Assembly (NCBI RefSeq): GCF_009659535.1
Contig: NZ_VJZZ01000024.1
Location: forward strand, 1 to 64,000
Source: Aggregicoccus sp. 17bor-14
Lineage (GTDB): Bacteria; Myxococcota; Myxococcia; Myxococcales; Myxococcaceae
Direction of reading: 5' to 3'
Length of the DNA: 64,000 bases
Shown: positions 6,822 to 24,134 of the stretch, piece after piece
How positions within the stretch are numbered: position 1 is the stretch's first letter
Layout of the letters: every line of letters begins with the position of its first letter
Notes under the pieces: generated by a model
The model's database searches: none
Seen by the model: the letters and a program-made list of their open reading frames with translations, nothing else
Told to the model about the DNA's origin: nothing
Translations under genes and position numbers: made by a program

Positions 6822-9800
6822 CACGGAAGCGCCGAAGCACGGGCCCATCGCGCGGCTCATCGCGGCGAGCGCGCGCAACCCCCTGCTCACGCTGCTGCTC
6901 ACGCTCGCGCTCGCAGCGTGGGCCGCCTTCGCGCTGCACGGCACGAAGCTGGACGCGGTGCCGGACCTCTCCGACACCCAGGTCATCATCTTCACCGAGT
7001 GGATGGGGCGCTCGCCGGACCTCGTCGAGGATCAGATCACCTACCCGGTCTCCTCTGCGCTGCTCGCCGCGCCGCGGGTGAAGGCGGTGCGCGGCCAGTC
7101 CATGTTCGGCATGTCCTTCGTGTACGTCATCTTCGAGGACGGCACGGACCTGTACTGGGCGCGCAGCCGGGTGCTCGAGTACCTCAACACCGCCCAGGGC
7201 AAGCTCCCGCAGGGCGTCACGCCCACGCTGGGTCCCGACGCCACCGGCGTGGGCTGGGTGTTCGAGTACGCGCTGCGCGACCGCAGCGGACGGCACGGGC
7301 TCGCGGAGCTGCGCAGCCTGCAGGACTGGAACGTGCGCTACGCGCTCTCCAGCGTGCCTGGGGTCGCGGAGGTGGCGAGCCTGGGCGGCATGGTGCGCCA
7401 GTACCAGGTGCAGGTGGACCCGCAGCGGCTGCGCGCACAGGGCCTGATGCTCTCGGACGTGGCGCGGGCGGTGCGCGCCTCGAACGGGGACGTGGGCGGC
7501 CGGGTGCTGGAGCTCGCGGGGCACGAGCACGTGGTGCGCGGGCGCGGCTACGTGAAGAGCGTGGCGGACCTGGAGAACGTGCCGCTCAAGGTGGGCAGCG
7601 GGGGCGCCCCGGTGCTGGTGAAGCACGTGGGCACGGTGTCCCTGGGGCCGGACCTGCGCCGCGGCGTGGCGGAGCTGGACGGCGAGGGCGAGGTGGCGGG
7701 CGGCGTCGTCGTGATGCGCTACGGCGAGAACGCGCTGCAGGTCATCGAGCGGGTGAAGGCGCGGCTCGAGGAGGTGAAGAGGAGCCTGCCCGAGGGCGTG
7801 GAGCTGGTGGTCACCTACGACCGCTCCGGGCTCATCCAGGAGTCCGTCCACACGCTCACCCGCGCGATGGTGGAGGAGCTGCTGGTGGTGAGCCTCATCA
7901 TCTTCCTCTTCCTGCTGCACGTGCGCAGCGCGCTCGTCCCCATCCTCACGCTGCCCGTGGCCGTGCTGCTCGCGTTCCTGCCCATGTACTACCAGGGGCT
8001 CACCGCGAACATCATGAGCCTGGGCGGCATCGTGGTCGCCGTGGGCGCGATGGTGGATGCGTCCATCATCCTCATCGAGAACGTGCACAAGCGGCTCGAG
8101 GAGTGGGAGGAGTCAGGAAGGCCCGGCGCGCGGCGCGAGGTGATCATCTCCGCGATGCAGGAGGTGGGGCCCAGCATCTTCGGCTCGCTGCTGGTGCTCA
8201 CCGTGGCCTTCATCCCGGTGTTCACGCTGGAGAGCACCGAGGGCCGGCTCTTCAAGCCGCTCGCGTACACGAAGACCTGGTCCATGGGCTTCGCCGCGGT
8301 GCTCGCGGTGACGCTCACCCCGGCGCTCGCGGCGCTCTTCATCCGCGGGCGCATCCGGCGTGAGGACGAGAACCCGGTGAACCGGCTGCTCATCCGGCTG
8401 TACACGCCGGTGGTGCGCTGGGTGGTGCGCCACCCGCGGCGCGTCGTCGCCTTCTCGCTGCTCGCGATGGTCTTCACCGTCCCGGCCTTCCTGCGGCTGG
8501 GCAACGAGTTCATGCCGCCGCTCAACGAGGGGGCCATCCTCTACATGCCCACCGCGCCCCCGGGCATGAGCGTGACGGAAGCCGCGCGCGTGCTGCGCAG
8601 CATGGACGCGGAGCTCAAGCGCATCCCCGAGGTGGTGAGCGTGTTCGGCAAGGCGGGGCGCGCGGAGAGCCCCACCGACCCCGCGCCTCCCTCCATGTTC
8701 GAGACCACCGTGGTGCTCAAGCCGCGCGGCGAGTGGCGCCCGGGCCTCACGTGGGAGGGCCTGCTGCGCGAGATGGACGAGCGGCTGCAGTACCCGGGCA
8801 TGCCCAACATCTTCTGGATGCCCATCCAGACGCGCACCGAGATGCTCGCCACGGGCATCCGCAGCCCGCTGGGCATCCAGGTGTACGGCGACAGCCTGCA
8901 GGACATCGAGCGCGCGGCGGTGGCGGTGGAGCGCGCGGTGGCGCAGGTGCCGGGCACGCGCAGCGCGTTCGCCGACCGGGCCACTGGCGGCCTCTACCTG
9001 GACGTGACGGTGAAGCGCGAGGAGGCGGCGCGCCTCGGCCTGAGCGTGGAGGACGTGAACGAGGTGGTGTCGGGCGCCATCGGCGGCGAGACGGTGAGCC
9101 AGACGGTGGAGGGGCGCGAGCGCTATCCCATCAACGTGCGCTACGCGCGCGAGTACCGCGACACGCCGGCGGCGCTCGGCGAGGCGCTGGTGGCCACGCC
9201 TTCCGGCGCCCAGGTGCCGCTCTCGCAGGTGGCGGAGGTGAAGAGCGTGCAGGGCCCGCCGATGCTGCGCAGCGAGGGCGGCAAGCTGCTCACCTCCGTG
9301 TTCGTGGACACCGAGCGCCCCATCGCGGACTACGTGCAGGAGGCGCGCGCCGCGGTAGAGCGCGAGGTGAAGCTGCCCTCCGGCGTGCGGCTCGAGTGGA
9401 GCGGGCAGTTCACCTACTTCGAGCGGGCGAAGGAGCGGCTGCGGCTGGTGGTGCCCGCGACGCTCTTGCTGGTGGTGCTGCTGCTCTACCTCAGCACGCG
9501 CTCGTGGGCGGAGACGGCCATCGTGATGCTCGCGGTGCCCTTCAGCCTCATCGGCGCGGTGTGGCTGCTCTACCTGCTCGGCTACAACATGAGCGTGGCG
9601 GTGTGGGTGGGGCTCATCGCGCTCGCGGGGCTGGACGCGGAGACGGGGGTCATCATGCTGCTCTACCTCACGCTCGCGCACGGCAAGGCGAGCGCGGAGG
9701 GGCGCATGCGCAGCGCCGCGGACCTCGAGGCGGCCATCCTGGTGGGCGCGGCCCAGCGCATCCGCCCGAAGCTGATGACGGTGGCGGTGGACATGATCGG

Positions 9801-10002
9801 CCTGCTGCCCGTGCTCTGGGCCACCGGCACCGGCTCGGACGTGATGAAGCGCATCACGGCGCCGCTGGTGGGCGGGCTCGTCACCAGCTTCCTGCTCGAG
9901 CTCACCGTGTACCCGGCCGTCTTCGCGCTCTGGAAGCGGAGGGGGCTGGCGCGCGAGAGCGCAGCGGCCGAGGAGGCGGTGCCCGCTATCCCTCGTCCTT
10001 GA
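6808..10002 (+). CDS. CusA/CzcA-family heavy-metal RND efflux pump
   Basis: 1064 residues, the usual length for HME-RND pumps. It exports metal from periplasm or cytoplasm using proton influx. Twelve membrane helices are in the RND pattern. Family signatures include [10 protein letters not shown] near the N terminus, [17 protein letters not shown] in helix 4, and [14 protein letters not shown], which contains the Met equivalent to the copper-binding Met672 of Cus[24 protein letters not shown]-like sequence lies in helices 10-11. These points favour Cu(I)/Ag(I) over Zn/Co. The gene is last of the CusC-B-A-like operon. Its 3' end overlaps the convergent bacterioferritin gene by 17 bases. Confidence 0.9.
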
Positions 10003-10462
10003 CCTGCTGGGCGAGGTAGTTCGCCTCGCCCAGCTGCTTCATCAGCTCGAGCTGGCCCTCGATCCAGTCCACGTGCTCCTCGCTGTCCACGAGGATGCGC
10101 TCGAGCAGCTCGCGGCTGCCGTTGTCGTTCACGCTGCGGCACAGCGCGATGCCGTCGTTGAGCGACTTCACGCTGTCGAGCTCCACCTGCAGGTCGAGCC
10201 GGAACATCTCCGCGACGCTCTCGCCCACGTTCACCTTGCCGAGGCGCTGCAGGTTGGGCAGCCCGCCCAGGAAGAGCACGCGCGCGACCAGCCGGTCCGC
10301 GTGCTTCATCTCCCCGATGGACTCGTCGCGGATCTTCTTCCAGAGCCGCGCGTAGCCCCAGTTCTCCACGATGCGCGCGTGGAGCCAGTACTGGTTGACG
10401 GCCGTCAGCTCGGCCGTGAGCACGTCGTTGAGGAGGGCGATGATCTGCGGATGGCCGTTCAT
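9986..10462 (-). CDS. bfr: Bacterioferritin
   Basis: 158 residues, exactly the family length. It stores iron as a 24-mer shell. Residues E18, Y25, E51, M52 (axial haem ligand), H54, E94 and H130 align without gaps with E. coli Bfr. Position 127, a di-iron bridging Glu in E. coli, is Ser here (VDSEEH). The ATG at 10462 is set by the alignment and by its 4-base overlap with the bfd stop. bfr is co-transcribed with bfd and transcribed away from an inverted repeat that may be an iron-responsive operator. The 3' end runs convergently into the RND pump gene. Confidence 0.95.
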
Positions 10463-10698
10463 GCTGCCGTGGACGCTAGGGCCGGCACGCTCACCGCGCC
10501 ATTGCCCTCCGGCCGCGCCGTCGCGGGCCCGGCAATGGGCGTCACGCCCTGCAGCAGCTGGCTGATCTGCGCCTTGCACGTCCCGCAGTCCGTCCCCGCG
10601 CCGCACGCCGACCCCACCTGCCTCACCGTGCAGGCCCCCGCATCGATGGCTCGACGGACGACGCGGTCGGACACGGCACGGCAGACGCAGACGATCAT
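10459..10698 (-). CDS. bfd: Bacterioferritin-associated ferredoxin
   Basis: 79 residues. Bfd-type [2Fe-2S] proteins donate electrons to bacterioferritin haem to release stored iron. The cysteine pattern is C-x-C (VCVCRAV) followed about 32 residues later by C-x2-C (DCGTC), as in the Bfd/Fer2_BFD fold. A variable Ala/Pro-rich tail follows the core. The start MIVCVC is preferred over upstream ATGs because family members begin directly at this motif. The stop overlaps the bfr start, so both should be translated together. Confidence 0.9.
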
Positions 10699-10776
10699 TG
10701 CTTCCCCTGAAGCGCGCGGCGACCACCGACGTGGCGGCCCACTCCGCTCGCCCTGCCATGCTCCCATGTGCGATAT

Positions 10777-10791
10777 TGACTTTGCAAGTCA
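10777..10791. promoter_or_regulatory. Inverted repeat between bfd-bfr and the barrel/cytochrome pair
   Basis: TGACTT-TGC-AAGTCA is a perfect 6-3-6 inverted repeat in an unusually AT-rich patch of a GC-rich sequence. It lies between two divergent transcription units, one being the iron-storage pair. The TGA...TCA ends match the outer parts of a Fur 7-1-7 site (TGATAATNATTATCA) but the centre does not, so Fur is only one candidate. Confidence 0.45.
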
Positions 10792-10863
10792 CTCTCAACT
10801 ATGTGCGGGCTGCTCGCCGGTAGGGCGAGCGAACGCCCTCACCCCGAGACGAGACCCACCCCG

Positions 10864-11670
10864 ATGCTGCGCCCCCTGCACCTGCTCCCCCTGCTGCTCG
10901 CGCTCGCCGCGCTGGTCCCCGCCGCGGCCCACGCGAACGAGCGCCACTTCACCTACAGCTACGAGACGGCGGTGCTGCCGCCGGGCGCGCGCGAGATCGA
11001 GATGTGGACCACGCTGCGCGCGGGCCGCGACGCGGGGCGCTACGTGGCCTTCGAGCACCGAGGCGAGTTCGAGCTGGGCCTGACGGACCGGCTGCAGACC
11101 TCGCTGTACCTGAACTTCAGCACCGTGAGCCAGGAGGTGGTCCCCGGCCAGCTCGCGACCACCACCCGCTTCGACAGCGTGAGCAACGAGTGGAAGCTCA
11201 AGCTGCTGGACCCCGTGGCGGACGCGGTGGGCCTCGGCCTCTACGGCGAGGTGGCCTTCGGGCCCGAGGAGGCCGAGCTCGAGCTGAAGCTGCTGCTGGA
11301 CAAGCGCGTGGGACAGCTGCTGCTGGTGGGCAACCTGGTGCTGGAGAACGAGCTGGAGTTCGAGCTCGAGGAGACCGAGCCCGAGTTCGCCGCCGAGCTC
11401 ACCCTGGGCGCCACCTGGTTCTTCACCCCCGGCTTCAGCGCGGGCGTGGAGCTGCGCAGCGTGAACGCCTTCCCGGAGGGCGAGGGCTGGCGGCACTCGG
11501 CCCTCTACGCAGGCCCCGTGGTCGCCTACGCGCAGCCCGGCTGGTGGGTGGCCCTCAGCGTGATGCCCCAGCTGCCCGCGCTCAAGAAGCCCGAGGGCAC
11601 CACCAGCAGCCGCATCCTCGACGAGCAGGAGAAGCTCAATGCACGCCTCCTCTTCAGCTTCGCCATCTAG
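10864..11670 (+). CDS. Predicted outer-membrane beta-barrel protein (DUF6662-like)
   Basis: 268 residues. A signal peptide of about 23 residues ends in AHA. The mature chain alternates short amphipathic strands rich in aromatic and acidic residues and ends in a Phe-containing strand ([10 protein letters not shown]), as expected of an outer-membrane barrel. It resembles uncharacterised proteins of the DUF6662 type, so no substrate is assigned. The ATG at 10864 begins the signal peptide; an earlier in-frame ATG at 10801 adds an unlikely leader. Its 3' end overlaps the next gene by 32 bases. The divergent bfd-bfr pair and shared palindrome suggest iron- or metal-related control. Confidence 0.65.
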   Translation: MLRPLHLLPLLLALAALVPAAAHANERHFTYSYETAVLPPGAREIEMWTTLRAGRDAGRYVAFEHRGEFELGLTDRLQTSLYLNFSTVSQEVVPGQLATTTRFDSVSNEWKLKLLDPVADAVGLGLYGEVAFGPEEAELELKLLLDKRVGQLLLVGNLVLENELEFELEETEPEFAAELTLGATWFFTPGFSAGVELRSVNAFPEGEGWRHSALYAGPVVAYAQPGWWVALSVMPQLPALKKPEGTTSSRILDEQEKLNARLLFSFAI

Positions 11671-12022
11671 GCGCGCGCTGCGCACCGTCCTCGGCGCCGC
11701 AGCGCTCGCGGCCGCGGCCTGCGCGGGCGCCCGGGTGCACCTGCCCGAGCCCACCGAGGCGCTCGCCGCGCACGTGCCGGGCACCAGCGTCGCCGAGCTG
11801 GGCGAGGGCCGCCGCCTCTTCGTCGGCCGCTGCTCCGGCTGCCACAACCTGCCCGACCCCAAGGCCTACCGCGCCGACGAGTGGCCGGCGCAGGTGTCGG
11901 AGATGGGCGCGCGCGCCCGCCTCTCCGCCGAGCAGCAGCAGCTCGTCGCGCACTACCTGCAGGCGGCCGCGCTCGATGTGCCCGCCCCGGCTCCGGCTTC
12001 GCAGCCCACGGCTGCGCGCTAG
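11639..12022 (+). CDS. Small c-type cytochrome lipoprotein
   Basis: 127 residues. The N terminus has a basic stretch, a hydrophobic core and a lipobox-like ALAAAAC, giving a lipid-anchored periplasmic protein. One haem-binding CSGCH lies near residue 67. A single Met after the haem site (EMGARARL) may be the sixth ligand. Such short cytochromes are electron carriers or are attached to outer-membrane complexes. The gene begins inside the 3' end of the barrel gene, so the two are translationally coupled and may form a unit. The 3' end meets copA convergently, with overlapping stop codons. Confidence 0.75.
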
Positions 12023-14484
12023 AGCTGCGCGCGCCGCAGCCGCAGCGCGTTGCCGATGACCGAGACGCTGGAGAGGCTCATCGCGGCGCTCGCCACCATG
12101 GGGCTGAAGAGCAGCCCCGTGAAGGGGTAGAGCGCCCCGGCGGCGAGGGGCACGCCCAGCGAGTTGTAGACGAAGGCGAAGAAGAGGTTCTGCCGGATGT
12201 TGCGCACGGTGGCGCGGCTGAGGCGGCGCGCGCGCACCAGCGCCCGCAGGTCTCCCTTCACCAGCGTGACGCCCGCGCTCTGCATCGCCACGTCGGTGCC
12301 GGTGCCCATGGCCACGCCCACCTCGGCCTGCGCGAGCGCCGGCGCGTCGTTCACCCCGTCGCCCGCCATCGCGACGCGGCGCCCCTCGGCCTGCAGGCGC
12401 TTCACCCACGCGCTCTTCTGCTCGGGCAGCACCTCCGCGTGCACCGCCTCGAAGAGGCCGCCCAGCTGCCGCGCCACCGCGTCCGCCGTGGCCTGGCTGT
12501 CGCCGGTGAGCATCACCAGGCGCAGCCCCTCGCGCCGCAGCGTGCGCAGCGCCTCGGGCGTGGTGGCCTTCACCGGGTCCGCGACGCCGAGCAGCCCCGC
12601 GAGCCGCCCGTCCGCCGCGACGAACATCACCGTCTGTCCCTCGCGCCGCAGCGCCTCCGCCTCGGCGACCGCCGCGCCCGGCTCCACGCCCAGCTCCGCG
12701 AGCAGCCGCGCGTTGCCCAGCGAGACCTGCACGCCGTCCACGCGCCCCGTCACCCCGCGCCCGGTGAGGGACTGGAAGTCCTGCACCTGTGAGAGCGCCA
12801 CGCCGCGCTCCTGCGCACCCCGCACGATGGCGTCCGCGAGCGGGTGCTCGCTGCCGCGCTCGAGGCTCCCCGCGCGCCGCAGCAGCTCTGACTCATCGTG
12901 GCCCGCGAGCGGCTGCACCGAGACGAGGCGCGGCTTGCCCTCGGTGAGGGTGCCCGTCTTGTCCAGGACGAGCGTGTCCACGCCAGCGAGCGTCTCCAGC
13001 GCTTCGGCATCGCGCACGAGCACGCCGGCCTGCGCGCCGCGCCCCATGCCCACCACGATGGAGATGGGCGTCGCGAGCCCGAGCGCGCAGGGGCACGCGA
13101 TGATCAGCACCGCGACCGCGTTGACCAGCGCGTGGGCGAGCCGCGGCTCCGGCCCCCACACGCCCCACAGCAGCGCCGTGACGAGCGCCACCGCGATCAC
13201 CGTGGGCACGAAGATGCCGGAGACCGTGTCCGCGAGCCGCTGGATGGGCGCGCGGCTGCGCTGGGCCTCGGCCACGCGCGCCACGATCTGCGCGAGCAGC
13301 GTGTCCTTGCCCACGCGCTCGGCGCGCATCACCAGGCCGCCCGTGCCGTTCACCGTGCCGCCCGTCACCCGCGCGCCCGCGGCCTTCTCCACCGGCACGC
13401 TCTCGCCCGTCACCATGGACTCGTCCACGCTGCTCGTGCCCTCCAGCACGGTGCCGTCCACGGGCACCTTCTCGCCGGGGCGCACGCGCAGGCGGTCTCC
13501 CACCTGCACGCGCTCGAGCGCCACGTCCTCCTCGTGCCCGTCCTGCCCGAGCCGCCGCGCCGTCTTCGGCGCGAGCCCCAGCAGCGCCCGGAGCGCGCCG
13601 GAGGTGGCGTGGCGCGCGCGCAGCTCCAGCACCTGCCCCAGCAGCACCAGGGTGGTGATGACGGCGGCCGCCTCGAAGTACACGTGCACGCCGCCCGCGC
13701 CGGTGTGGCCTCGGAATGCAAGCGGCAGCGTGCCGGGCAACAGCGTCGCCCAGAGGCTGAAGGCGTAGGCCGCGCCCGTGCCCAGCGCGATGAGGGTGAA
13801 CATGTTGAGGTGCCCGGTGCGCACCGAGCGCCAGCCGCGCGCGAAGAAGGGCGCGCCGCCCCAGAGCACCACGGGCGTGGCGAGGAGCAGCTGCACCCAG
13901 CTGAACTCCAGGCCGGGCAGCAGGCGCTGCACGCGCGGGCCCACCAGCATGTCGCTCATGCCCAGCAGGAAGACGGGGAAGGTGAGCGCGAGGCTCACCC
14001 AGAAGCGCCGGCGCATGTCCACCAGCTCCGGGTCCGGCGCCTCCTCCAGCGTCACGGTGCGCGGCTCGAGCGCCATCCCGCAGAGGGGGCAGCTGCCCGG
14101 CGCATCGCGCACGATCTCCGGGTGCATGGGGCACACGTACTCGGTGCGCGTGGCGAGGAGCTGCGGCGTCTCGGGCTCCAGCGCCATGCCGCACTTCGGG
14201 CACGGGCCAGGCTCGTCCTCGCGCACCTCGGGGTCCATCGGGCACACGTACGCGGCGCCCTCCGGAGCGGGCTCGGGCTCGGGGCGTGGGGCGGGCGAGA
14301 GGTAGCGCGCGGGCTCGGCCGCGAACCGCTCGCGGCAGCGCGGGTTGCAGAAGAAGTGCGCGTGCCCTGCGTGGGTGTGGCTCCCGCCCTTCGCGTGCGC
14401 GGGGTCCACGGTCATCCCGCACACGGGGTCGATCGCCGTGGCCTGCGCAGGCTGAGGAAGCGTTGAGGAGTGGCGGTGGGTCAT
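12019..14484 (-). CDS. copA: Copper-exporting P1B-type ATPase with YHS and two heavy-metal-binding modules
   Basis: 821 residues. ATP-driven Cu(I) export from the cytoplasm. The N terminus holds a YHS-type module (DPVCGM ... FFCNPRC, about residues 17-60). Two CPM(H/D)PE ... CPxCGMAL modules follow at about 75-150, replacing the usual CxxC domains. The core shows TGES, CPC at 464-466, DKTGTLT with phospho-Asp 508, and GDGVNDAP. The last helices carry YN and MSLSS, the Cu(I)-site residues of subgroup P1B-1. The start at 14484 follows a ribosome-site-like AGGACCC. It is transcribed divergently from the methyltransferase/ECF-sigma operon, whose sigma factor is a plausible regulator. Confidence 0.92.
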
Positions 14485-14536
14485 GGGCTGCTGGGTCCTT
14501 TCACACAGGGCCAACGCCGCTTCGATTCCGCTCTTA

Positions 14537-14548
14537 CACCCCCGGGTG
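14537..14548. promoter_or_regulatory. Candidate operator in the copA/methyltransferase divergent region
   Basis: CACCC-CC-GGGTG is a short perfect inverted repeat about 52 bases upstream of the copA ATG, in the 130-base space between divergent genes. It vaguely recalls the C/G-tract operator of the CsoR-type repressor at 2788. The match is weak and could be chance in such GC-rich DNA. Confidence 0.25.
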
Positions 14549-14614
14549 CACCCCCTCTTGAAGCCCGCCCGCCTTGTGGGCAAGTGTGCGCGGCCGCAAC
14601 CCCGGGGGGACGAC

Positions 14615-15478
14615 ATGGGCTCGAAGCCGCAGCAGCAGCGCTACATGACCAGCGCCGTGCAGATGGTGTACCGCAAGCTGGGCAACCGGGCCGTGGTGGG
14701 CCCGCTGCTCGAGCGCCACTACGAGGCGCTCTTCGCGGGCAACCGGGAGCAGAACCTCTTCCGCGGCGCGTACGACTCCTTCGAGGCCGCGCAGGCGAGC
14801 GCGCCCCGCTCGCGCCCCGTGGGCTACGACCACCCCGAGCCGGCGAAGATGTACCGCGACCGCTTCGAGCGCGTCTTCACCAACGACTACCCGATGATGC
14901 TCTGGCTCGAGCGCGCACTGCAGGCCTCGGGCGAGGCGCCGCGCGTCTTCGACTTCGGCGGGCACGTGGGCTTCGCGCGCTACACCTTCGCGCGCTACCT
15001 GCGCTTCCCCGCGGGGCTGCGCTGGCAGGTGTGCGACGTGCCGGCGGTGGTCGCCGAGGGCGAGGCCATCGCCCGCGAGCAGGGCATGCCGGGGCTCAGC
15101 TTCACCACCGACCGCGCCCAAGCGGACGGAGCGGACGTGTTCTTCGCCTCCGGCTCGCTGCAGTACGTGCCCACTCCGCTCGCCGAGATGCTCGGCGCGC
15201 TGCGGCAGCCCCCGCCCCACCTGCTGCTCAACATGCTCTCCCTGCACCCCACGCGCTCCGCCGTGACGCTGCAGAGCATCGGCACCGTGTTCTGCCCCTA
15301 CGCCATCTTCCAGCGCGACGCCTTCGTGCAGTCGCTCGCCCCGCTGGGCTACCGGCTCGTGGACAGCTGGGACAACCCGGACAAGGGCTGCACCATCCCC
15401 TTCCACCCCGAGGTCTCGGTCAGCGGCTACACCGGCCTGTACCTCTCGCGCGTGGCGCCGGGGGCCGCAGCGGCGTAG
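14615..15478 (+). CDS. TIGR04325-type methyltransferase
   Basis: 287 residues. A predicted SAM-dependent methyltransferase of the TIGR04325 group, whose substrates are unknown. The SAM-binding strand reads [13 protein letters not shown] near residue 110, followed by an acidic strand end ([15 protein letters not shown]). The start at 14615 follows a GGGGGGA ribosome site. An in-frame ATG at 14483 would overlap copA's start and adds unlikely sequence. The ECF-sigma gene begins 10 bases after the stop, so the two form an operon, divergent from copA. A link to copper is positional only. Confidence 0.75.
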
Positions 15479-15488
15479 AGGAGGGGGC

Positions 15489-16064
15489 ATGGACGCCACC
15501 ACCGAGCGTGTCTCCCCCGCGCTGCTGGCCAACCACCAGCGCTTCCTCGCCTTCCTCGAGCGGCGCGTGGGCAGCCGCGCGCGCGCCGAGGACATCCTGC
15601 AGGCCGCCTTCGTGCGCTCGCTGGAGAGCGGCCGCGTGCCCGACGACGAGGAGAGCGCCGTGGCGTGGATGTACCGCACCCTGCGCAACGCGCTCGTGGA
15701 CCAGTACCGCCGCGAGGGCACCGAGGCGCGCGCGCTCGAGCGCGAGGCCCGGGGGGCGGACGAGGCCGCGCCCGACGCCGAGCTGCACGCCACCGTGTGC
15801 GGCTGCATGAAGGACCTGCTGCCCGAGATGAAGCCCGAGTACGCGGAGCTGCTGCAGCGCGTGGACCTCGAGGAGCGCCCCCTGCCCGAGGTCGCCCGCG
15901 AGCTGGGCATCACCGCGAACAACGCTGGCGTGCGCCTGCACCGTGCGCGCGCGGCGCTGCGCCGGGAGTTGCAACGCAGTTGCGGGAGCTGCGCGACGCA
16001 CGGGTGCCTGGACTGCGGGTGCGCGCGCAAGCGGGCCGCGGCGCAGGGGGCGGCGGAGCGCTAG
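15489..16064 (+). CDS. ECF sigma factor with C-terminal cysteine-rich domain (CorE-like)
   Basis: 191 residues. The sigma2 region (ARAEDILQAAFVRSLE, then WMYRTLRNALVDQYRR) and sigma4 region (LPEVARELGITANNAGVRLHRARAALRREL) are clear. A CGC lies at the sigma2-sigma4 linker. The tail CGSCATHGCLDCGC has six cysteines and a histidine. This layout, linker CxC plus Cys-rich tail, is that of CorE-type sigma factors, which in Myxococcus sense copper directly without an anti-sigma factor. No anti-sigma gene is next to it, as expected. GAGGGGG precedes the ATG. Likely targets include the divergent copA, by inference. Confidence 0.85.
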   Translation: MDATTERVSPALLANHQRFLAFLERRVGSRARAEDILQAAFVRSLESGRVPDDEESAVAWMYRTLRNALVDQYRREGTEARALEREARGADEAAPDAELHATVCGCMKDLLPEMKPEYAELLQRVDLEERPLPEVARELGITANNAGVRLHRARAALRRELQRSCGSCATHGCLDCGCARKRAAAQGAAER

Positions 16065-16071
16065 GGGCAGG

Positions 16072-16096
16072 CTCCCTCTCCCAGAGGGAGAGGGAG
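16072..16096. terminator. Bidirectional terminator-type hairpin between ECF sigma and ribA
   Basis: CTCCCTCTCCC and GGGAGAGGGAG form a perfect 11-base stem with a three-base loop. The hairpin starts 8 bases after the sigma-factor stop and ends 8 bases before the ribA stop on the other strand. The position between convergent genes is ideal for a shared terminator, although no T-run flanks it. Confidence 0.65.
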
Positions 16097-16103
16097 GACA
16101 CGG

Positions 16104-16874
16104 TCAGTCGTTCGTGGGCTCTGGCGCAGCGGCGGGTGCGTCCGCGACGAGCACCGGCTCGCCCTGCTCGGGCAGGTGCGGCTTGCCGGTGAAGTCGATG
16201 AAGTGGCCGCTCTTGGCCGCCTTCGTCTCCAGGTAGAAGCGGTTGTGCGCGTTGGGCGGCATCACGTGCGGGATGCGCCCCGTCACCTTCACGCCGTGCT
16301 GCTCGAGCTGGCGCACCTTGTCGGGGTTGTTCGTGAGCAGCGCCACCGAGCGCACCCCGAGGCTCTGCAGCATGTGCGCCGCCACCGCGTAGTCGCGCTC
16401 GTCGTCGCGAAAGCCCAGCGCGCGGTTGGCCTCCACGGTGTCCAGCCCGCGGTCCTGCAGCGCGTAGGCGCGCACCTTGTTGAGCAGGCCGATGCCCCGG
16501 CCCTCCTGGCGCAGGTAGAGCAAGAGCCCCCGCTCCTGCGCGCCCAGTTGCCGCAGCGCCGCCTCCAGCTGGTCGCGGCAGTCGCAGCGCAGGCTTCCCA
16601 GCGCATCGCCGGTGAGGCACTCGGAGTGCAGCCGCGTGGGCACCGCCTCCGCGCCGACCACGTCTCCGTGCACCAGCGCCAGGTGCTCCTTGCCGTCGCG
16701 GTTGTTCCAGAAGGCCACGATGCGGAAGGTGCCGAAGCGTGTGGGCAGATCCGCCACCGCGTCCACCCGCACGCACACGTGCTGCGCGCCGAAGCCCGCG
16801 CAGTCGTGGGTGCGGTCGCGCTCGACGAGATCCTCGAGCCGCACCGCCTTCGCCGCCTCGCCGCCGCTGGTCAT
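16104..16874 (-). CDS. ribA: GTP cyclohydrolase II
   Basis: 256 residues. First step of riboflavin synthesis, converting GTP to the 2,5-diaminopyrimidine with release of formate. Zinc cysteines appear in SECLTGDALGSLRCDC. The RQEGRGIGL motif and the GVRSVALLTNNPDK segment are diagnostic. It is a stand-alone GCH2, not fused to a RibB domain, with an N-terminal extension of about 30 residues and an Ala/Pro/Glu tail. The start at 16874 is preferred over 16907 because GAGGGG lies 10 bases upstream. No other rib gene is nearby. Confidence 0.93.
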   Translation of the reverse strand: MTSGGEAAKAVRLEDLVERDRTHDCAGFGAQHVCVRVDAVADLPTRFGTFRIVAFWNNRDGKEHLALVHGDVVGAEAVPTRLHSECLTGDALGSLRCDCRDQLEAALRQLGAQERGLLLYLRQEGRGIGLLNKVRAYALQDRGLDTVEANRALGFRDDERDYAVAAHMLQSLGVRSVALLTNNPDKVRQLEQHGVKVTGRIPHVMPPNAHNRFYLETKAAKSGHFIDFTGKPHLPEQGEPVLVADAPAAAPEPTND

Positions 16875-17045
16875 CGCGTCTGTCCCCTCTGCCTGAGTCC
16901 CTGCCACACACCCAGGGTAAGCCTCCGGCGCGGGCCCCGCTCGCTCCGCGTGCCCCCAAGTGTCGGTGGACGGCGCCGCACGGGGGCTCCCCGGGTGCCT
17001 CCTGCCTGGCTGCCCTGCAGTGGAGCAGGCCCGCGCGGGCGCGCA

Positions 17046-18461
17046 CTAGGCGCAGGCGAGCGGCAGGCGCAGGGTGAAGGTGGAGCCCTCGCCGGGGCGG
17101 CTCTGCACCTCCACGCTGCCGCCGTGGGCGCGGGCAATCTCACGGGTGATGTAGAGCCCCAGCCCCAGGCCGCTCACCTCGCTGGGGCTGATGGCGCGCT
17201 CGAAGCGCTCGAAGATGCGCGTGAGGTCCTCGGCGCGCACGCCCAGGCCGTGGTCCTGTACCTCGAGCAGCGCGTGGCCTGCGTGCACGCGCGCGCGCAC
17301 CTGCACCGGCCGGCCCCGCCCGTACTTGAGCGCGTTGCTCAAGAGGTTGGTCACCGCCTGCTCGAGCCGGCTGCGGTCCCACACCCCGATAATCGGCGCG
17401 CCGCGCCCCCGCTGCAGCTGGATGCGGCCCGCGTCGAGCGAGGGCTCGTCGGAGGCGTGGTCCACCGTCTCCTCGAGCAGCTCGCCCAGGTCCACCGGCG
17501 CGCGCCGCAGCGCGAGCTGGTGTGCGTTGATGCGCGAGACGTCCAGCAGGTCGCTCACCAGCTGCGAGAGCCGGCGCACCTGGCGGTCCGTGCGCCCCAG
17601 CGTGCGCGCGAGCTTCTCCTCCTCGGGGCTGCGCGCCTGGTCCATGCGCTGCGCGAGCAGCCGCTGCAGCCCCTGCACCTGGAGCTTGAGGCTGGTGAGC
17701 GGCGTGTTCAGCTCGTGGCTCGCCACGCCGAGGAACTCGTCGCGCGCCTGCACCGCGCGCTCGAGCCGCTCCTCGGAGGCGCGGAAGTGCTTCAGCTGGT
17801 GCACCATCCAGTCCACCCGCCGCTCGGCGCTCTCGCGCCCCAGCACCATCGCCGGCGTCTCGTAGAAGAGGTTCGCGCACACCTGGTCCCCGAGGATGGC
17901 GATGGGGTGGGTGCGCAGCACGTCGCGGATCAGGTCCGCGCCGAAGCGGCGCCGGTTGTACTGGCAGATGGCGAGCGCGGGCTGGCCCGGGAAGAAGTCG
18001 TTGAGCAGCGCCTCGTACTCCACCAGGTCCTCGCACCCGCACTCGCGCCCCAGCGCCCAGGTCATCTCGCCGGTGACGCGGAAGCCCGAGAAGCCGCGCT
18101 CGGCCGCCTCGCGCACCGTGTCCCCGAGGAAGGAGATCATCCCCGGCGGGTTGAAGCTGCCCTCGCGCAGGTAGGCCTCGCGCTTCGAGAGGAACACGAG
18201 CGCGCCGCGCGCCACGTGCCGCTCCACCTCCACGCCGTGCGCCTGCAGCGCGTGGCGCACCTCGTCGATGCTGTGCTCGTCCGTGATGTACGCGCAGGCC
18301 TCGTTGCGCGCGAGCCCCGCCGTGAGGAAGGGCACCACCGCCGCCCACTGCTCCTCGGGCGTCTCGTACACGAGGCAGTAGTGCTCGCCGTGCTTCATCG
18401 CCTCCACCTGCGAGTCGAGGGGCGCGGGCTTCGCGAGGGAGGGGGGCTGGCTCTGGAGCAT
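17046..18461 (-). CDS. MEDS-domain sensor histidine kinase
   Basis: 471 residues, with no membrane helix, so cytoplasmic. Residues of about 20-205 form a MEDS/DcmR-type sensory domain (HYCLVYET ... FLTAGLARNEACAYI ... EYEALLNDFF ... ICQYNRRRF). A coiled linker follows. The HisKA box is FLGVASHELNTP with phospho-His 249. An HATPase domain carries NLLSNALKYG, DHGLGV and GLGLGLYITREI. The MEDS ligand is unknown; in other bacteria the fold is linked to C1 compounds and redox cues. The gene diverges from a degenerate receiver gene across 142 bases, an obvious candidate partner. Confidence 0.88.
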   Translation of the reverse strand: MLQSQPPSLAKPAPLDSQVEAMKHGEHYCLVYETPEEQWAAVVPFLTAGLARNEACAYITDEHSIDEVRHALQAHGVEVERHVARGALVFLSKREAYLREGSFNPPGMISFLGDTVREAAERGFSGFRVTGEMTWALGRECGCEDLVEYEALLNDFFPGQPALAICQYNRRRFGADLIRDVLRTHPIAILGDQVCANLFYETPAMVLGRESAERRVDWMVHQLKHFRASEERLERAVQARDEFLGVASHELNTPLTSLKLQVQGLQRLLAQRMDQARSPEEEKLARTLGRTDRQVRRLSQLVSDLLDVSRINAHQLALRRAPVDLGELLEETVDHASDEPSLDAGRIQLQRGRGAPIIGVWDRSRLEQAVTNLLSNALKYGRGRPVQVRARVHAGHALLEVQDHGLGVRAEDLTRIFERFERAISPSEVSGLGLGLYITREIARAHGGSVEVQSRPGEGSTFTLRLPLACA

Positions 18462-18603
18462 GTGGGGCCGAACGGGGAGCCCCGCTGGAAGATTTCGGGA
18501 TGCCCGAGGCCAGGTGGGCGAGCAGGCGGAGGGCCGCTGCGTCCGGGGATCGTACCGGCGTACGGAGCGGAAAGTCCCCGGCGCGGCACTTACCTTCACG
18601 GCC

Positions 18604-19029
18604 ATGCGACCCCGGGTGCTGGTGCTGAGCGACAGTGAGGAACTCCTGCCGGAGCTGACGAAGGTCCTGGACCGCGTCGGCTTCGAGACCGGGTGCGCGC
18701 GCGTGGCGGAGCTCGAGCGCGACGAGGTGGACCTGGGCACCCTGCTGCACGGCTTCGACCCGCAGGTGGTGGTGCTGGAGCTCGCGCTGCCCTACGCGCG
18801 CAGCGGCGCCTTCCTGCGCGAGCTGCGCGCGCGGCCCGAGGCCCACGGGCGCGGCGTGGTGCTCGTCTCGGCCAACGCGCGCGCCGCCGCACGGCTCGCC
18901 GGACTGGATCCGCGCGAGCCGGTGCTCGAGCTGCTGCTCGCTCCCGAGGACCTCGCCCAGCTCGTTACCCGCGTGGCCGCGGCCGCGCGCGTGCCGGCAG
19001 GCGAGGACCTGCACGCCGGCTCGCCCTGA
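18604..19029 (+). CDS. Degenerate receiver-domain protein (phospho-Asp replaced by Glu)
   Basis: 141 residues, a single receiver-like fold. The beta1 strand VLVLSDSEE supplies one acidic residue. The site after beta3 reads VVVLELALP, with Glu59 where phospho-Asp should be. Beta4 ends VLVSAN. The conserved Lys before Pro in beta5 is Ala (LLLAPEDL). It therefore probably cannot be phosphorylated normally, and Glu may mimic the active state. There is no output domain. The start follows a CACGGCC stretch without a strong ribosome site. It is divergent from the MEDS kinase, so it may be its atypical partner or an adaptor. Confidence 0.7.
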   Translation: MRPRVLVLSDSEELLPELTKVLDRVGFETGCARVAELERDEVDLGTLLHGFDPQVVVLELALPYARSGAFLRELRARPEAHGRGVVLVSANARAAARLAGLDPREPVLELLLAPEDLAQLVTRVAAAARVPAGEDLHAGSP

Positions 19030-19661
19030 GACTGTGCGCTGCTCGGGATCACCTGGGCTGCAGCCGCGGGGAGCGCTGAGAACTCTCGCATGGGGCATCG
19101 CTCCTGCGCCGCAGCAGCCTCGAGGGGCGTCAGGACCGGAAGGGTGGCGGTGCGCTGCGGCCGCTCGCGGTGGGGCGTCGCCGGCTCCGCAGCGCTCAGG
19201 GGTGACACGCTGGCAGTCCTCGCGTCTTCCTCGCGGCCGTCGCCTGGAATGAAGCTTCCTTCTGCGCACCGTCCGCGCTGCCTGCCGAGGGCCCTCGCGT
19301 GGAGCGAAACGTCCATTCCACGTGGGAGGTCTCTGGCCCCCGAGCTCCGCTTCACTCTGAGTGTGTCCCCCCTCGGGAGCGGCGGCCCGCGTCGCGCAAA
19401 AACGTAAAATAGGATTTTACCTTTTTGCATCGCGCGCCGGTCCGCGCCCGGGAGGGGCGTCCCCTTTCGAGACAGCAGTCCACGCGTCGTGGACGGTTTC
19501 ACCCTCTTTGAGAAGCCCCGTCCCCTCCCGGCCTCTCCTGCTCGAGGCCGTGCGCCCCGCGCCACTCTCGCGTGTCCGTGCAGTGCTTCTACAGGTGGTG
19601 ACGCAGCGACGCGACGCGGGGGCAGGGACGCGGCCGGCGCACGCCTCCAGGCCTGCGCGGC
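19030..19661. other. 632-base gene-free stretch between convergent genes, with AT-rich palindromes
   Basis: No frame shows a recognisable protein. The codon pattern of real genes here (third-position G/C) is absent. The stretch holds a strong AT-rich palindrome at 19396-19428 and a smaller perfect inverted repeat GTCCACG-CGT-CGTGGAC at 19478-19494. It could hold a small RNA, long 3' ends or a site for a DNA-binding protein. Confidence 0.6.
19396..19428. repeat. AT-rich 15-base-arm palindrome
   Basis: The left arm GCAAAAACGTAAAAT, a three-base centre AGG, and the right arm ATTTTACCTTTTTGC pair at 14 of 15 positions. About three quarters of these bases are A or T, in a region otherwise overwhelmingly G+C. 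It does not match dif or parS consensus sequences that I know. It is not followed by a T-run, so a simple terminator is not obvious. Function unknown. Confidence 0.8.
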
Positions 19662-20528
19662 TCAGGACAGGGCATGGACCTGGCCTCCGAGCGCGCGCAG
19701 GCGGCGCACGCGCTCCTCCGTCTGCGGGTGGGTGCTGAACAGCGCCATCAGCCCCTGCGCGCCGGTGAGCGGGTTGACGATGAAGAGGCTCGCGGTGGCG
19801 GGCTGGGCGGCGCCCGGCTGCGCGAACACCTGCGCCCCGTGCTGCAGCTTGAGCAGCGCGCGGGCGAGCCCCTCGCTGTCCCCCGCGATGCGCGCGCCGG
19901 TGCGGTCCGCCTCGTACTCGCGCGAGCGCGAGATGCCCAGCTGGATGAGCGTCGCGGCGAGCGGCGCCACCAGCGCGAGCAAGAGCAGCTGCAGGGGGCC
20001 GGGGCCCTCCTCGTCACTGCCGCGGCCGGTGAAGAGGTGGCCTGCGAAGCCGGCCGCGTGCGCGAGGTAGGTCACGGCCGCGGCCACGGTGGCCGCGATA
20101 GAGGAAAGCAGGATGTCGCGGTTCTTGATGTGCGCGAGCTCGTGGGCAATCACCCCGCGCAGCTCGCGCTCGTCGAGCAGCCCCAGCAGGCCGGTGGTCA
20201 CCGCCACCACGCCGTGCGCGGGGTCGCGCCCCGTGGCAAACGCGTTGGGCTGCGGGTCCTGCATGACGAAGAGGCGCGGCATCGGCAGGCCCGCGCGCGC
20301 GCTCAGCTCCTCCACGAGCCGGCGCAGCCCCGGGGCCTCGCCGGGAGAGAGCTCGCGCGCGCCGTGCATGCGCAGCACGAGCTTGTCCGAGAAGAAGTAG
20401 GCGCCCACGTTGAGCGCCACCGCCAGCACCGCGGCGAAGCCCGCGTAGCCGGGGCCGAGCAGGCTCCCGGCGGCGATGAAGGCCCCCGACAGCAGGCCGA
20501 GCAACAGGACCGTCTTCAGCTGGTTCAT
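19662..20528 (-). CDS. htpX: HtpX-type membrane zinc metalloprotease
   Basis: 288 residues. An M48-family protease that degrades misfolded membrane proteins with its active site facing the cytoplasm. Two N-terminal membrane helices (about 7-46), HELAH with H129, E130 and H133, two further helices (VAAAVTYLAHAAGF; LLLLALVAPLAATLI), then SREYEADRTGA with the third zinc ligand. PNAFATGRDP is the substrate-groove segment. The start is next to a divergent LysR gene (nhaR), with 83 bases between them, so NhaR could influence it. No heat-shock promoter was identified by eye. Confidence 0.92.
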   Translation of the reverse strand: MNQLKTVLLLGLLSGAFIAAGSLLGPGYAGFAAVLAVALNVGAYFFSDKLVLRMHGARELSPGEAPGLRRLVEELSARAGLPMPRLFVMQDPQPNAFATGRDPAHGVVAVTTGLLGLLDERELRGVIAHELAHIKNRDILLSSIAATVAAAVTYLAHAAGFAGHLFTGRGSDEEGPGPLQLLLLALVAPLAATLIQLGISRSREYEADRTGARIAGDSEGLARALLKLQHGAQVFAQPGAAQPATASLFIVNPLTGAQGLMALFSTHPQTEERVRRLRALGGQVHALS

Positions 20529-20553
20529 GGACCTTCTATTTGCGGCCCACCCG

Positions 20554-20592
20554 GCCCATCGGCCAGGAGATAAATCGGGCGAAGCCCATCGG
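20554..20592. promoter_or_regulatory. Directly repeated GCCCATCGG in the htpX/nhaR divergent promoter
   Basis: GCCCATCGG occurs at 20554-20562 and again at 20584-20592, exactly 30 bases (about three helical turns) apart, flanking the more AT-rich GATAAATC. The spacing is compatible with binding of a LysR-type protein on one DNA face. A classical T-N11-A site was not confirmed. Confidence 0.3.
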
Positions 20593-20611
20593 GAGCGCCT
20601 ATAGGAGCCGC

Positions 20612-21520
20612 ATGTCCGCCTGGCTCAACTACCACCACCTCTTCTACTTCTGGACCACGGTGCGCGAGGGCAGCGTCTCTGCGGCGAGCCGCAAGCTGCG
20701 GCTCGCGCAGCCCACGGTGAGCGAGCAGCTCAAGAGCCTGGAGGAGAGCCTCGGGGTGGAGCTGTTCAGCCGCGTGGGCGGCAAGCTGGTGCTCACCGAG
20801 CTGGGGCGCCACGCCTACCGCTACGCGGACGAGATCTTCACCCTGGGGCGGGAGCTGCAGGACTCGCTGCAGGGGCTGCCCACGCGCCGCGGAGAGCGGC
20901 TGGTGGTGGGCATCGCGGACGTGGTGCCCAAGCTGGTGGCGAGCCGGCTGCTGGAGCCTGCGCTGCAGCTGCAGCCGGAGGTGCACCTCGTCTGCCGCGA
21001 GGACCGCCAGGACCGGCTGCTCGCCGAGCTCGCGGTGCACGCGCTGGACGTGGTCATCACGGACGCGGCGGTGCCCGCGGGCAGCGCCGTGCGCGCCTAC
21101 AGCCACCTGCTGGGCGAGAGCGCCGTCACGCTCTTCGCGCAGAAGACGCGCGCCGAGCGCCTGCGCCGCCACTTCCCCAGGTCGCTCGAGGGCGTGCCCA
21201 TGCTGCTGCCCACCGAGGGCACCAGCCTGCGCCGCCAGCTCGCCGCATGGATGGAGGGCGAGCGGGTGCGCCCGCGCATCGTGGGCGAGTTCCAGGACGC
21301 CGCCCTGCTCAAGACCTTCGGGCAGCTGGGGATGGGCGTGTTCCCGGGCACCGCGGTGCTCGAGGAGCAGATCTGCGCCCAGTACGGCGTGGCGGTGGTG
21401 GGGCGCCTGGAGAGCGTGCGCGAGCGCTTCTACGCCATCACCGTGGAGCGAAAGCTGCGCCACCCCGCGGTCGTCGCCGTGTCCGAGGCCGCGCGCAACA
21501 GCCTCTTCCCCCGGCCCTGA
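20612..21520 (+). CDS. nhaR: LysR-family transcriptional activator, NhaR type
   Basis: 302 residues. The N-terminal winged helix begins NYHHLFYFW and continues with SAASRKLRLAQPTVSEQLKSLE, typical of NhaR. The remaining residues of about 95-300 form the LysR effector-binding domain. In E. coli, NhaR activates nhaA in response to sodium, and NhaR homologues are widespread in other settings. The start at 20612 is set by the conserved N terminus and the ATAGGAG ribosome site. No nhaA lies in the window; a CPA1 antiporter lies 20 kb away. The divergent neighbour is htpX. Confidence 0.88.
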   Translation: MSAWLNYHHLFYFWTTVREGSVSAASRKLRLAQPTVSEQLKSLEESLGVELFSRVGGKLVLTELGRHAYRYADEIFTLGRELQDSLQGLPTRRGERLVVGIADVVPKLVASRLLEPALQLQPEVHLVCREDRQDRLLAELAVHALDVVITDAAVPAGSAVRAYSHLLGESAVTLFAQKTRAERLRRHFPRSLEGVPMLLPTEGTSLRRQLAAWMEGERVRPRIVGEFQDAALLKTFGQLGMGVFPGTAVLEEQICAQYGVAVVGRLESVRERFYAITVERKLRHPAVVAVSEAARNSLFPRP

Positions 21521-21662
21521 GGCCCGCGTCCGCCCCTGGGACGCGCCCTTCCCAGCGCCGGTCACCCCCGCGGGACCCGGTCCCACCCGGCCGAGTCATC
21601 CCGCGCACTTGGGCCCCGGGCACGGCGCTTGCGAGAGGGTGGGGCCACGGAGGAGTGCGCGC

Positions 21663-24134
21663 GTGATCGACGAACTCGGACAGGACCTGCGCTACGCCCT
21701 GCGCATGCTGCGCCGCCAGCCGGGCTTCGCCCTGGTGGCGGTGCTCACGCTCGCGCTGGGCATCGGGGCGAACACCGCCATCTTCAGCGTGGTGGACGCG
21801 CTGCTGCTCAAGCCGCTGCCCTACGCCGGCGAAGAGGCGCTGGTGATGGTGTGGGAGACGAACCGCGAGGGCAAGGCGGGCACCACCAGCCCGATGAACT
21901 TCCGCGACTGGCGCAAGGCGGACGCCTTCAGCGGGCTCGCGGCCTTCTCCAACCTCGCCTTCAACCTCGCCGGCAGCGGCGAGGCGCCCCCCGAGCGCGT
22001 GCAGGCGAGCAGCGTCTCGAGCAACTTCTTCGAGGTGCTCGGCGTGCGCCCGATGCTGGGCGCCACCTTCGAGCCCGCGCCGGACGGCGTGGCGGACGCG
22101 CGCACCGTGGTGCTCAGCCACCGGCTGTGGCAGCGGCGCTTCGGCGGGGACCCGGGCATCGTGGGGCGCACCGTGCGCCTGGACGATGCGCCCTACACCG
22201 TGCTCGGCGTGATGCCCGCGGGCTTCGAGTGGGCGCAGATCGCCCCGAAGGGCGCGAGCGCGCGCGACGCCGCCGAGCTGTGGACGCCCGCGCCCCACCA
22301 CGACGTGCCCCAGCTGGGGGTGGACACCGGCGTGGAGCTCTCCAGCTCGCGCGGCACCGGCTACCTGCGGGTGGTGGGGCGGCTCGCGCCGGGGGTGAGC
22401 CTGGCGCAGGCAGGCAGCCGCATGCAGGCGCTGGGCGCGCAGCTCGCGCGCGATTTCCCCGAGGACAACGCGGGCTCGAGCATCCGGGTGCTGCCGCTGC
22501 GCGAGCAGCTCTACGGCAGCACGCGCCCCATGCTGCTGGTGCTGCTCGCGGCGGTGGGGCTGGTCCTGGCCATCGCCTGCGCCAACGTGGCCAACCTCTT
22601 CCTCGCGCGCGCGGCCGGACGGGGGCGCGAGCTCGCGGTGCGCACGGCGCTGGGGGCGCGGCGCGGGCGGCTCGTGCGCCAGCTGCTCACCGAGAGCCTG
22701 CTGGTGGCGCTCGCGGCCGGCGCGCTCGGGCTCTTGCTCGCGGCGTGGGGCGTGGACGCGCTGCTCGCGCTGGAGCCGGCGGACGTGCCGCGCCTCACCG
22801 ACGTGGGGCTGGACGGCGCGGTGCTGCTCTTCACGCTGGGCGTGTCGCTGGGCACGGGGCTGCTCTTCGGCCTGCTGCCCGCGCTGCACGCCTCGGACCT
22901 GGACCTGCACGCCACGCTGAAGCAGGGCGCGGGGGTGAAGGGCGGCGGGCGCGGGAAGCGCTCGCGCGCGGCGCTGGTGGTGGCCGAGACGGCGCTCGCC
23001 CTGGTGCTGCTGGTGAGCGCGGGGCTGCTCTTGCAGGGCTTCTGGCGCCTGCAGCACGTGGACCCGGGCTTCGAGCCCGACCGCCTCCTCAGCTTCGCCG
23101 TCAACCTGCCGAAGCAGCCCTACTCGGACGAGGCGCGCCAGACGGCCTTCTACCGCCAGGTGCTCGAGCGGCTCTCGGCGCTGCCCGGCGTGGAGCGCGC
23201 GGGCGCGGTGCTCACGCTGCCCTTCGGGCGCGACAACATCGGGCTCACCCTCAACGTGGAGGGCCGCCCGCCGCCTCCGCCGGGGCGGGAGCAGCCCACG
23301 GCCGGCTACCAGGTCGCCTCGCAGGACTACTTCGCCACGCTCGGCATCCCGCTGCTGCGCGGGCGCGGCTTCCTGCCCACGGACGTGGACGGCTCGCTGC
23401 CCGTGGTGCTGCTGAGCGAGGCCGCGGCGAAGGCGAACTTCCCCGGCGAGGACCCGGTGGGCCGGCGCATCCGCATGGGCGGCGAGGGCAACCGCTGGCT
23501 CACCGTGGTGGGCGTGGTGGGGGACGTGCGCCACGGCGGGCTCGGCGAGCCGCCGCGCGCCGAGGTCTACCGCCCGTTCGAGCAGGACGGCTGGGCCTTC
23601 CTCACCTTCGTGCTGCGCACGCGCGGCGAGCCGACGGCGCTCGCCCAGGCGGCGCGCGACGCGGTGCGCGCGGTGGACGGGCAGCTGGCGATCGCCCGCG
23701 TGCAGCCGGTGCGCGCGCTGGTGGACGCCTCCATCGCGCGCGAGCGCTTCCTCTCCCTGCTGGTGGGGGTGTTCGCCGCGGTCGCCCTGCTGCTCGCGGC
23801 GGTGGGGCTCTACGGCGTCATCAGCTACGCGGCGCGCGGGCGCACGCAGGAGATCGGCGTGCGCATGGCCCTGGGCGCGCGCCCCGCGGACGTGCTGCGG
23901 CTCGTGCTGGGCTCGGGGCTGCGCCTCGCGCTCGGGGGCGTGGCGCTGGGGCTGGTGGGCGCGTGGGGCGCGGGGAGGCTGCTCGCGAGCCAGCTGCCGG
24001 GGGTGCGCGCCGCGGACCCGCTCACCCTCGCCGCGCTCGCGCTCGCGGTGTGCGCCGTGGCGCTCGCCGCCACCTGGCTCCCCGCGCGCCGCGCGATGCG
24101 CGTGGACCCGCAAGAGGCGCTGCGCGCGGAGTAG
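21663..24134 (+). CDS. ADOP-family (MacB/FtsX-like) ABC transporter permease
   Basis: 823 residues. It begins with the ADOP signature DELGQDLRYALRMLRRQPGF. One membrane helix (LVAVLTLALGIGANTAIF) precedes a periplasmic MacB_PCD-type domain, then an FtsX block of three helices (about 280-415). A second periplasmic domain and second FtsX block follow, giving the duplicated layout of acidobacterial duplicated orphan permeases. The GTG start at 21663 has GGAGGAG 8 bases upstream; the ATG at 21609 has none. No ATPase or adaptor gene is adjacent, as the 'orphan' label implies. Such proteins are thought to act mechanically with a separate ATPase; the substrate is unknown. Confidence 0.87.
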   Translation: MIDELGQDLRYALRMLRRQPGFALVAVLTLALGIGANTAIFSVVDALLLKPLPYAGEEALVMVWETNREGKAGTTSPMNFRDWRKADAFSGLAAFSNLAFNLAGSGEAPPERVQASSVSSNFFEVLGVRPMLGATFEPAPDGVADARTVVLSHRLWQRRFGGDPGIVGRTVRLDDAPYTVLGVMPAGFEWAQIAPKGASARDAAELWTPAPHHDVPQLGVDTGVELSSSRGTGYLRVVGRLAPGVSLAQAGSRMQALGAQLARDFPEDNAGSSIRVLPLREQLYGSTRPMLLVLLAAVGLVLAIACANVANLFLARAAGRGRELAVRTALGARRGRLVRQLLTESLLVALAAGALGLLLAAWGVDALLALEPADVPRLTDVGLDGAVLLFTLGVSLGTGLLFGLLPALHASDLDLHATLKQGAGVKGGGRGKRSRAALVVAETALALVLLVSAGLLLQGFWRLQHVDPGFEPDRLLSFAVNLPKQPYSDEARQTAFYRQVLERLSALPGVERAGAVLTLPFGRDNIGLTLNVEGRPPPPPGREQPTAGYQVASQDYFATLGIPLLRGRGFLPTDVDGSLPVVLLSEAAAKANFPGEDPVGRRIRMGGEGNRWLTVVGVVGDVRHGGLGEPPRAEVYRPFEQDGWAFLTFVLRTRGEPTALAQAARDAVRAVDGQLAIARVQPVRALVDASIARERFLSLLVGVFAAVALLLAAVGLYGVISYAARGRTQEIGVRMALGARPADVLRLVLGSGLRLALGGVALGLVGAWGAGRLLASQLPGVRAADPLTLAALALAVCAVALAATWLPARRAMRVDPQEALRAE

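Follow-up and report, generated by a model that had tools for sequence, protein, structure and literature searches.

The window, namely, the entire 64,000-nucleotide stretch of Aggregicoccus sp. 17bor-14 DNA considered here, contains a gene encoding a CorE-type ECF sigma factor that is preceded on the same strand by a methyltransferase gene and, across a divergent promoter region, by copA (Table 1). The sigma factor comprises sigma-70 regions 2 and 4 (PF04542 and PF08281, both above the Pfam cut-off), in agreement with an earlier reading of this DNA made from the sequence alone (hereafter, the sequence-only reading). Because 79 of 145 genomes from the order contain a homologue (E <= 1e-20; 126 matches, including the window's own), the gene is not a chance open reading frame. 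The neighbour across the promoter region proved to be a copper ATPase, as also proposed earlier: CopA scored 590 bits against TIGR01511 (cut-off 397), its CPC motif was read in the sequence and its gene runs divergently from position 14484. Downstream of the sigma gene lies ribA (NCBIfam), in convergent orientation. Profile searches of the direct neighbours, i.e., the methyltransferase gene, copA and ribA, found no anti-sigma gene, again as had been claimed. About 1 kb further on, a gene on the minus strand (17049-18740) encodes a histidine kinase that has a MEDS domain at its N-terminus and that scored 93.6 bits against the model of RsbA-type anti-sigma regulators, below the cut-off of 210.

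Table 1. Features of the copA-sigma factor region and the basis of each assignment.
Feature	Position	Strand	Basis
copA, copper P1B-type ATPase of 821 aa with two HMBD domains and a CPC motif	12019..14484	-	TIGR01511, Pfam, sequence
CorE-type promoter-like element TGTAAG-N16-CGTT, aimed at copA	14513..14538	-	Pattern and matrix scans; conserved upstream of copA
TIGR04325-family methyltransferase gene, 287 aa, start inferred	14615..15478	+	NCBIfam; model pLDDT; PDB Rossmann methyltransferases
AGGAGG, likely ribosome-binding site for the sigma gene, right behind the methyltransferase stop	15479..15484	+	Read in sequence
Gene for the CorE-type ECF sigma factor (191 aa)	15489..16064	+	Pfam Sigma70_r2 and Sigma70_r4_2; homologues in the order
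Linker CGC between sigma2 and sigma4	15798..15806	+	C-x-C in aligned relatives
Cys-rich tail C165-x2-C168-x4-C173-x2-C176-x-C178	15981..16022	+	CorE/CorE2 spacings (accessible parts of PMC9023288 and PMC3107203)

The CGC motif assigned to the linker of the sigma factor was confirmed at residues 104-106, and C-x-C is present in all 39 of the relatives aligned. The tail, said earlier to hold six cysteines, was found to hold five (residues 165, 168, 173, 176 and 178). According to the accessible parts of the two reports on the Myxococcus xanthus proteins, the tail of CorE reads C184-x4-C-x2-C-x-C (PMC9023288), cysteines 181, 184, 192 and 194 of CorE are invariant across 21 factors, C189 is the main cysteine for activation, and C206, the sixth tail cysteine, has a minor role (PMC3107203). 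By spacing, the four invariant cysteines correspond to residues 165, 168, 176 and 178 of the window factor and C189, of the copper type, to C173; an equivalent of C206 is missing from the tail. In CorE2, which senses Cd/Zn, the tail is C173-C-x3-C-x2-C-x-C, with C174 setting the metal (accessible part of PMC9023288). Such a CC-x3-C sequence is absent from the window tail, where C168-x4-C173 is found instead, and occurs in three of the 39 aligned relatives (L069, L072 and L074). At the level of sequence, the assignment of the window factor as CorE-like with a copper-type tail is thus supported; a search of solved structures returned general ECF factors only. It can still be argued that the factor senses another metal (Zn or Cd) or redox stress, with copA being one of several targets, since CorE itself also responds, albeit more weakly, to Cd and Zn (accessible part of PMC3107203) and since the window tail lacks the sixth cysteine. 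Given, however, the CorE spacing, the lack of CC-x3-C and a copper-type ATPase as the conserved target, this is rather improbable.

Of the other 125 matches to the sigma factor, 39 were taken together with their flanking sequences, having been hand-picked from closer and more distant ones, and the stretch around the methyltransferase gene of one further genome (G007) was added to the set of fetched loci. In a tree of 40 factors, the window protein, on a long branch, fell into a group with 19 further proteins (the fork, unstarred, having a support of 90/92). The fetched stretches of 18 of these 19 clade mates contain a copA relative, located 0.3 to 8.4 kb from the start of the factor match, with 17 of the encoded proteins sharing 70.8-74.8% identity with the window CopA and that of L062 sharing 67.7%. 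L062, from a different family, shows the divergent arrangement of copA and factor seen in the window; its stretch yielded no methyltransferase relative. Four loci in which an oxidase gene lies upstream and an HMA gene lies beside the factor, i.e., the published CorE neighbourhood, formed a separate clade (99/95). These loci were recognised by gene content, with the sequence of CorE itself (MXAN_3426) being outside the tree, and by that criterion of tree and neighbours the window factor, which does not group with them, is not CorE proper.

The upstream regions of copA relatives were found to have in common a promoter-like element, TGTAA[GT]-N16-CGT[CT], which in the window begins 54 bases before the copA start. 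When the 330 bases upstream of copA were scanned at the 23 loci where the copA match reaches at least 60% identity, an exact element was seen in 20, the window included. One-mismatch versions were present at L057 and L081, and at L058, where copA is present, no element was found within the 330 bases. The density of the element in the same loci (57 sites, including copA's own) predicts 0.012 sites per 330 bases. The 64-kb window contains a single exact site, with shuffled sequences giving a mean of 0.05 for the TGTAAG form. A matrix assembled from 19 sites of other loci scored the window copA site at 24.4, the next best position in the 64 kb reaching 11.2. When one mismatch was allowed, one site was found in the window versus 1.88 expected; as this count is not enriched, support for the element comes from position and conservation and not from number. 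Indeed, across the whole genome there are three exact N16 sites and none of the reversed pattern, a pattern of looser spacing occurs three times versus three for its reversed control, and most of the 145 genomes contain more copies of the reversed TGTAAG pattern than of the motif. Since the reversed pattern equals or exceeds the motif in these looser or wider counts, the number of sites is no evidence. One of the three exact sites of the genome falls, most likely by chance, where an unrelated coding region begins. Overall, copA is well supported in silico as the likely target of the sigma factor via this conserved promoter-like element.

No element was found ahead of the methyltransferase-sigma operon, where the best plus-strand matrix score is 3.4. 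Across the relatives, the element lies upstream of the sigma gene itself at two of 40 loci (L066 and L075), such that autoregulation through the element was rejected as a general rule. When the regions behind sites at 22 loci were translated, HMA, P-type ATPase and efflux genes were found behind sites other than those of copA; at several sites in relatives (e.g., L061, L070 and L082), no metal gene was recognised. At L064, L065, L068 and L073, loci of CorE-like synteny, the element lies ahead of HMA and P-type ATPase genes. AAC stretches are seen slightly downstream of it in some of these cases, and the element and the AAC stretch may both belong, side by side, to a single promoter. At L069 (10039-11107), the element lies ahead of a Cation_efflux gene of the zinc-transporter type, beside a factor with the CC-x3-C tail, an arrangement that fits Cd/Zn sensing. 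At L072 and L074, the other loci with such tails, no exact site was found in the stretches scanned.

The element differs from the published CorE site, which, in the accessible part of PMC3107203, was sought around AAC. This, together with the indication in the same source that M. xanthus copA seems to have a second copper-dependent regulator, would suit an explanation in which the element belongs to another regulator of copA, with the sigma factor being tied to copA for some other reason. Such an explanation is unlikely, given that the element has a -35/-10-like layout with N16, that in several genomes it is also found ahead of metallothionein-like, HMA and efflux genes with a link to CorE-like factors, and that it precedes the factors themselves at the two loci named above.

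A second predicted target was found on another contig of the same genome (C11, 135357-135607; L175 and L176), where the element begins 80 bases before an ORF (135437-135607) encoding 57 residues, of which 12 are Cys. Like bacterial metallothioneins, the predicted peptide is short, Cys-rich and contains many C-x-C pairs; unlike them, it has no Pfam or NCBIfam family match. The relatives searched likewise had no Pfam match, and no solved structures were found for the peptide. Its likeness to metallothioneins is one of composition only, with no match to a described metallothionein family. A protein search of the 145 genomes yielded nine matches at E <= 0.01, including the peptide itself. The element was found upstream of all four of the better matches (E <= 6.2e-4; G012, G005, G123 and G011), and at the four weaker ones (G143, G038, G120 and G126) no Cys-rich ORF was recovered at the match itself. 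In G005, G012 and G123, the ORF is convergent with a CorE-like gene, the match to which starts 600-762 bases away. The metallothionein-like ORFs behind the element (that on C11 and those at L076, L078, L082 and L180) encode 46-57 residues where the start is clear, including 10-12 Cys.

When 40 loci (759 kb) were scanned for short ORFs (25-75 residues) rich in Cys (8 or more, amounting to no less than 18% of the residues), five were found, four of them within 800 bases of the sigma gene; the element is present with three of these four. At the fourth, L075 (G143), an ORF of 53 residues and 14 Cys lies 423 bases upstream of the sigma match, in line with the CorE-like gene; no element was found directly upstream of it, and it has no Pfam match. 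At L077, a Cys-rich ORF of 31 residues, below the threshold of the scan, is found behind another site. As for metallothioneins and CorE-type factors, a mostly open-access literature search returned PMC10141476, which, in its accessible part, ties metallothionein to RicR only. The sigma group, the element or the link to the peptide may have been described earlier, with subscription literature and the CorE2 paper lying mostly outside that search.

The presence upstream, on the same strand, of a methyltransferase gene of the TIGR04325 family was upheld, its product scoring 213 bits (cut-off 80) over the whole of the family model, with no Pfam match. The stop codon of the gene (15476-15478) is separated by 10 bases from the ATG of the sigma gene and, given this gap and the likely ribosome-binding site behind the stop, the two genes are probably co-transcribed. 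A start at 14615 is more likely than one at 14483-14485, judging from relatives and from the copA promoter region, over which the longer reading frame would extend. The predicted fold is confidently that of a class I Rossmann methyltransferase (pLDDT 92.6), and a fold search retrieved assorted methyltransferases, with TM scores to the query of 0.39-0.48 among the matches listed, providing no hint of the substrate. Residues D113, G115, G116 and G119 are invariant in 40 aligned methyltransferase sequences. A foreign base composition was considered for the gene and rejected, since its third-position G+C (0.983) lies within the range of six other window genes (0.944-0.986), and a search of a phage collection found no match.

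The check proposed with the sequence-only reading, namely, a search for TIGR04325 genes next to Cys-rich ECF factors, revealed that, among the genomes examined, the pairing is not conserved, which counts against the methyltransferase but not against copA. The TIGR04325 model detected members in four of the 145 genomes of the order at E <= 0.001, two of them above the cut-off (this genome and G007). Because the other three all lie outside the 79 with a homologue of the sigma factor, both families occur together in one genome of 145. Likewise, no CorE-like factor was found near the TIGR04325 genes at 80 loci (the best 80 of 160 relatives in named genomes), in flanks of up to 10 kb, several contigs being shorter and records of this or near genomes possibly being left out; all statements on the neighbours of TIGR04325 loci rest on tblastn panels and on 20 neighbour proteins compared with Pfam. 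With counts of 1/145 and 0/80, a conserved sigma-methyltransferase module was rejected. The pairing could be conserved within the genus, of which one genome was covered.

Elsewhere, several TIGR04325 genes are found beside copper genes. On a plasmid of Variovorax WDL1, three such genes surround a cluster of TolC, copper oxidase, cupredoxin and copper-binding genes, and a similar arrangement is seen on the RA8 plasmid and at L166. In PBL-E5, one TIGR04325 gene is found behind the gene for a copper-binding protein, on a Bacteriovoracaceae contig another lies behind CopB and an oxidase-like gene, on a second contig of this group (L101) oxidase and P1B ATPase genes lie several kb away, and on a Rhizobium plasmid a pseudoazurin gene is nearby. 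At 12 of the best 80 of 160 loci, an HMA gene lies directly upstream of the TIGR04325 gene. As 11 of these 12 share their flanks, the twelfth being too short to compare, they largely represent one Variovorax locus, and the adjacency was rejected as strong evidence. At three loci (L091, i.e., Variovorax WDL1 plasmid 3, 210000-240000, as well as L087 and L166), PKS or NRPS genes occur together with two or three TIGR04325 genes and a copper cluster, a group that possibly directs synthesis of a copper-linked natural product.

Such copper neighbours (Variovorax WDL1, PBL-E5, Bacteriovoracaceae and the HMA loci), along with the short gap to the sigma gene, could be taken to mean that the methyltransferase takes an active part in the circuit, its substrate being the sensor itself, a surface glycan or a small molecule that binds copper, and that the pair was assembled since the functions fit. 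We regard this as unlikely. The HMA loci mostly have common flanks, other relatives inspected are found by NRPS genes (matches at 14 of the best 80 of 160 loci), polysaccharide genes, two-component genes or unrelated genes, none of the 80 loci contains a CorE-like factor, and, in a quick tree with many open forks, the window methyltransferase forms a lone long branch apart from the copper-linked ones; moreover, its gene has no element upstream.

We favour instead, with a probability of roughly 0.7, a reading in which the sigma factor, as a self-contained copper sensor of the CorE type, acts on copA and on the metallothionein-like gene, the methyltransferase being a bystander. Copper would bind the Cys-rich tail and the linker CGC of the factor, which would then work with RNA polymerase at TGTAA[GT]-N16-CGT[CT] promoters. 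The predicted targets are the divergent copA, serving export, and the gene for the 57-residue metallothionein-like peptide, serving copper binding. The methyltransferase gene, which separates the sigma gene from the divergent promoter region and is probably co-transcribed with that gene, would have arrived here in this lineage and would not be an output of the circuit.

Hence, of the copper-responsive circuit first envisaged, the CorE-like portion is supported, given the copper-type tail and the element at copA, whereas the inclusion of the methyltransferase is not, as the pairing occurs in one genome of those examined and no element lies upstream. It is well supported, as far as sequence comparison goes, that the locus is largely an ordinary CorE-like pair of copper sensor and pump, the sensor belonging to a clade separate from that of CorE. 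A methyltransferase beside this pair is common to no other genome examined. A broader proposal, in which TIGR04325 proteins are recurrent in copper defence, methylating a copper-binding metabolite or glycan, and in which a CorE-type factor drives a two-armed export and metallothionein-like response through a peptide family absent from the libraries searched, is quite doubtful. What emerges is a copA-linked group of sigma factors, apparently sensing metal themselves, beside CorE and CorE2; the group gains a promoter element that can be tested, and its predicted regulon gains a metallothionein-like peptide gene, this arm being the new lead.

In terms of known systems, the window methyltransferase resembles TIGR04325 (MTase_LIC12133) proteins in matching the whole HMM and in its class I fold. 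It differs in that, at the protein level, it was found in one of 195 genomes of the phylum (E <= 1e-8), namely, this one, its closest named relatives (47-50% identity over the best segment, among the best 80 of 160) being from Lysobacterales/Rhodanobacteraceae and betaproteobacteria. The sigma factor shares with CorE of M. xanthus, formerly of group ECF44 and unclassified in a newer scheme (accessible part of PMC8999054), the sigma2-sigma4 architecture with a CxC linker, the spacing of the tail cysteines and the lack of a linked anti-sigma factor, and copper ATPase genes are among the CorE targets. Yet the CorE tail contains six cysteines and that of the window factor five, and no oxidase match, as would be expected of the CorE neighbourhood, was found within positions 6001-24000 of the window. 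The window factor shares 48-55% identity with the factors of the four loci of CorE-like synteny, and the CopA proteins of these loci are 51-53% identical to the window CopA, as compared to mostly 71-75% in the window clade. Finally, CorE2 of M. xanthus is of the same architecture as the window factor but differs in the CC-x3-C pair, which the window tail does not contain.
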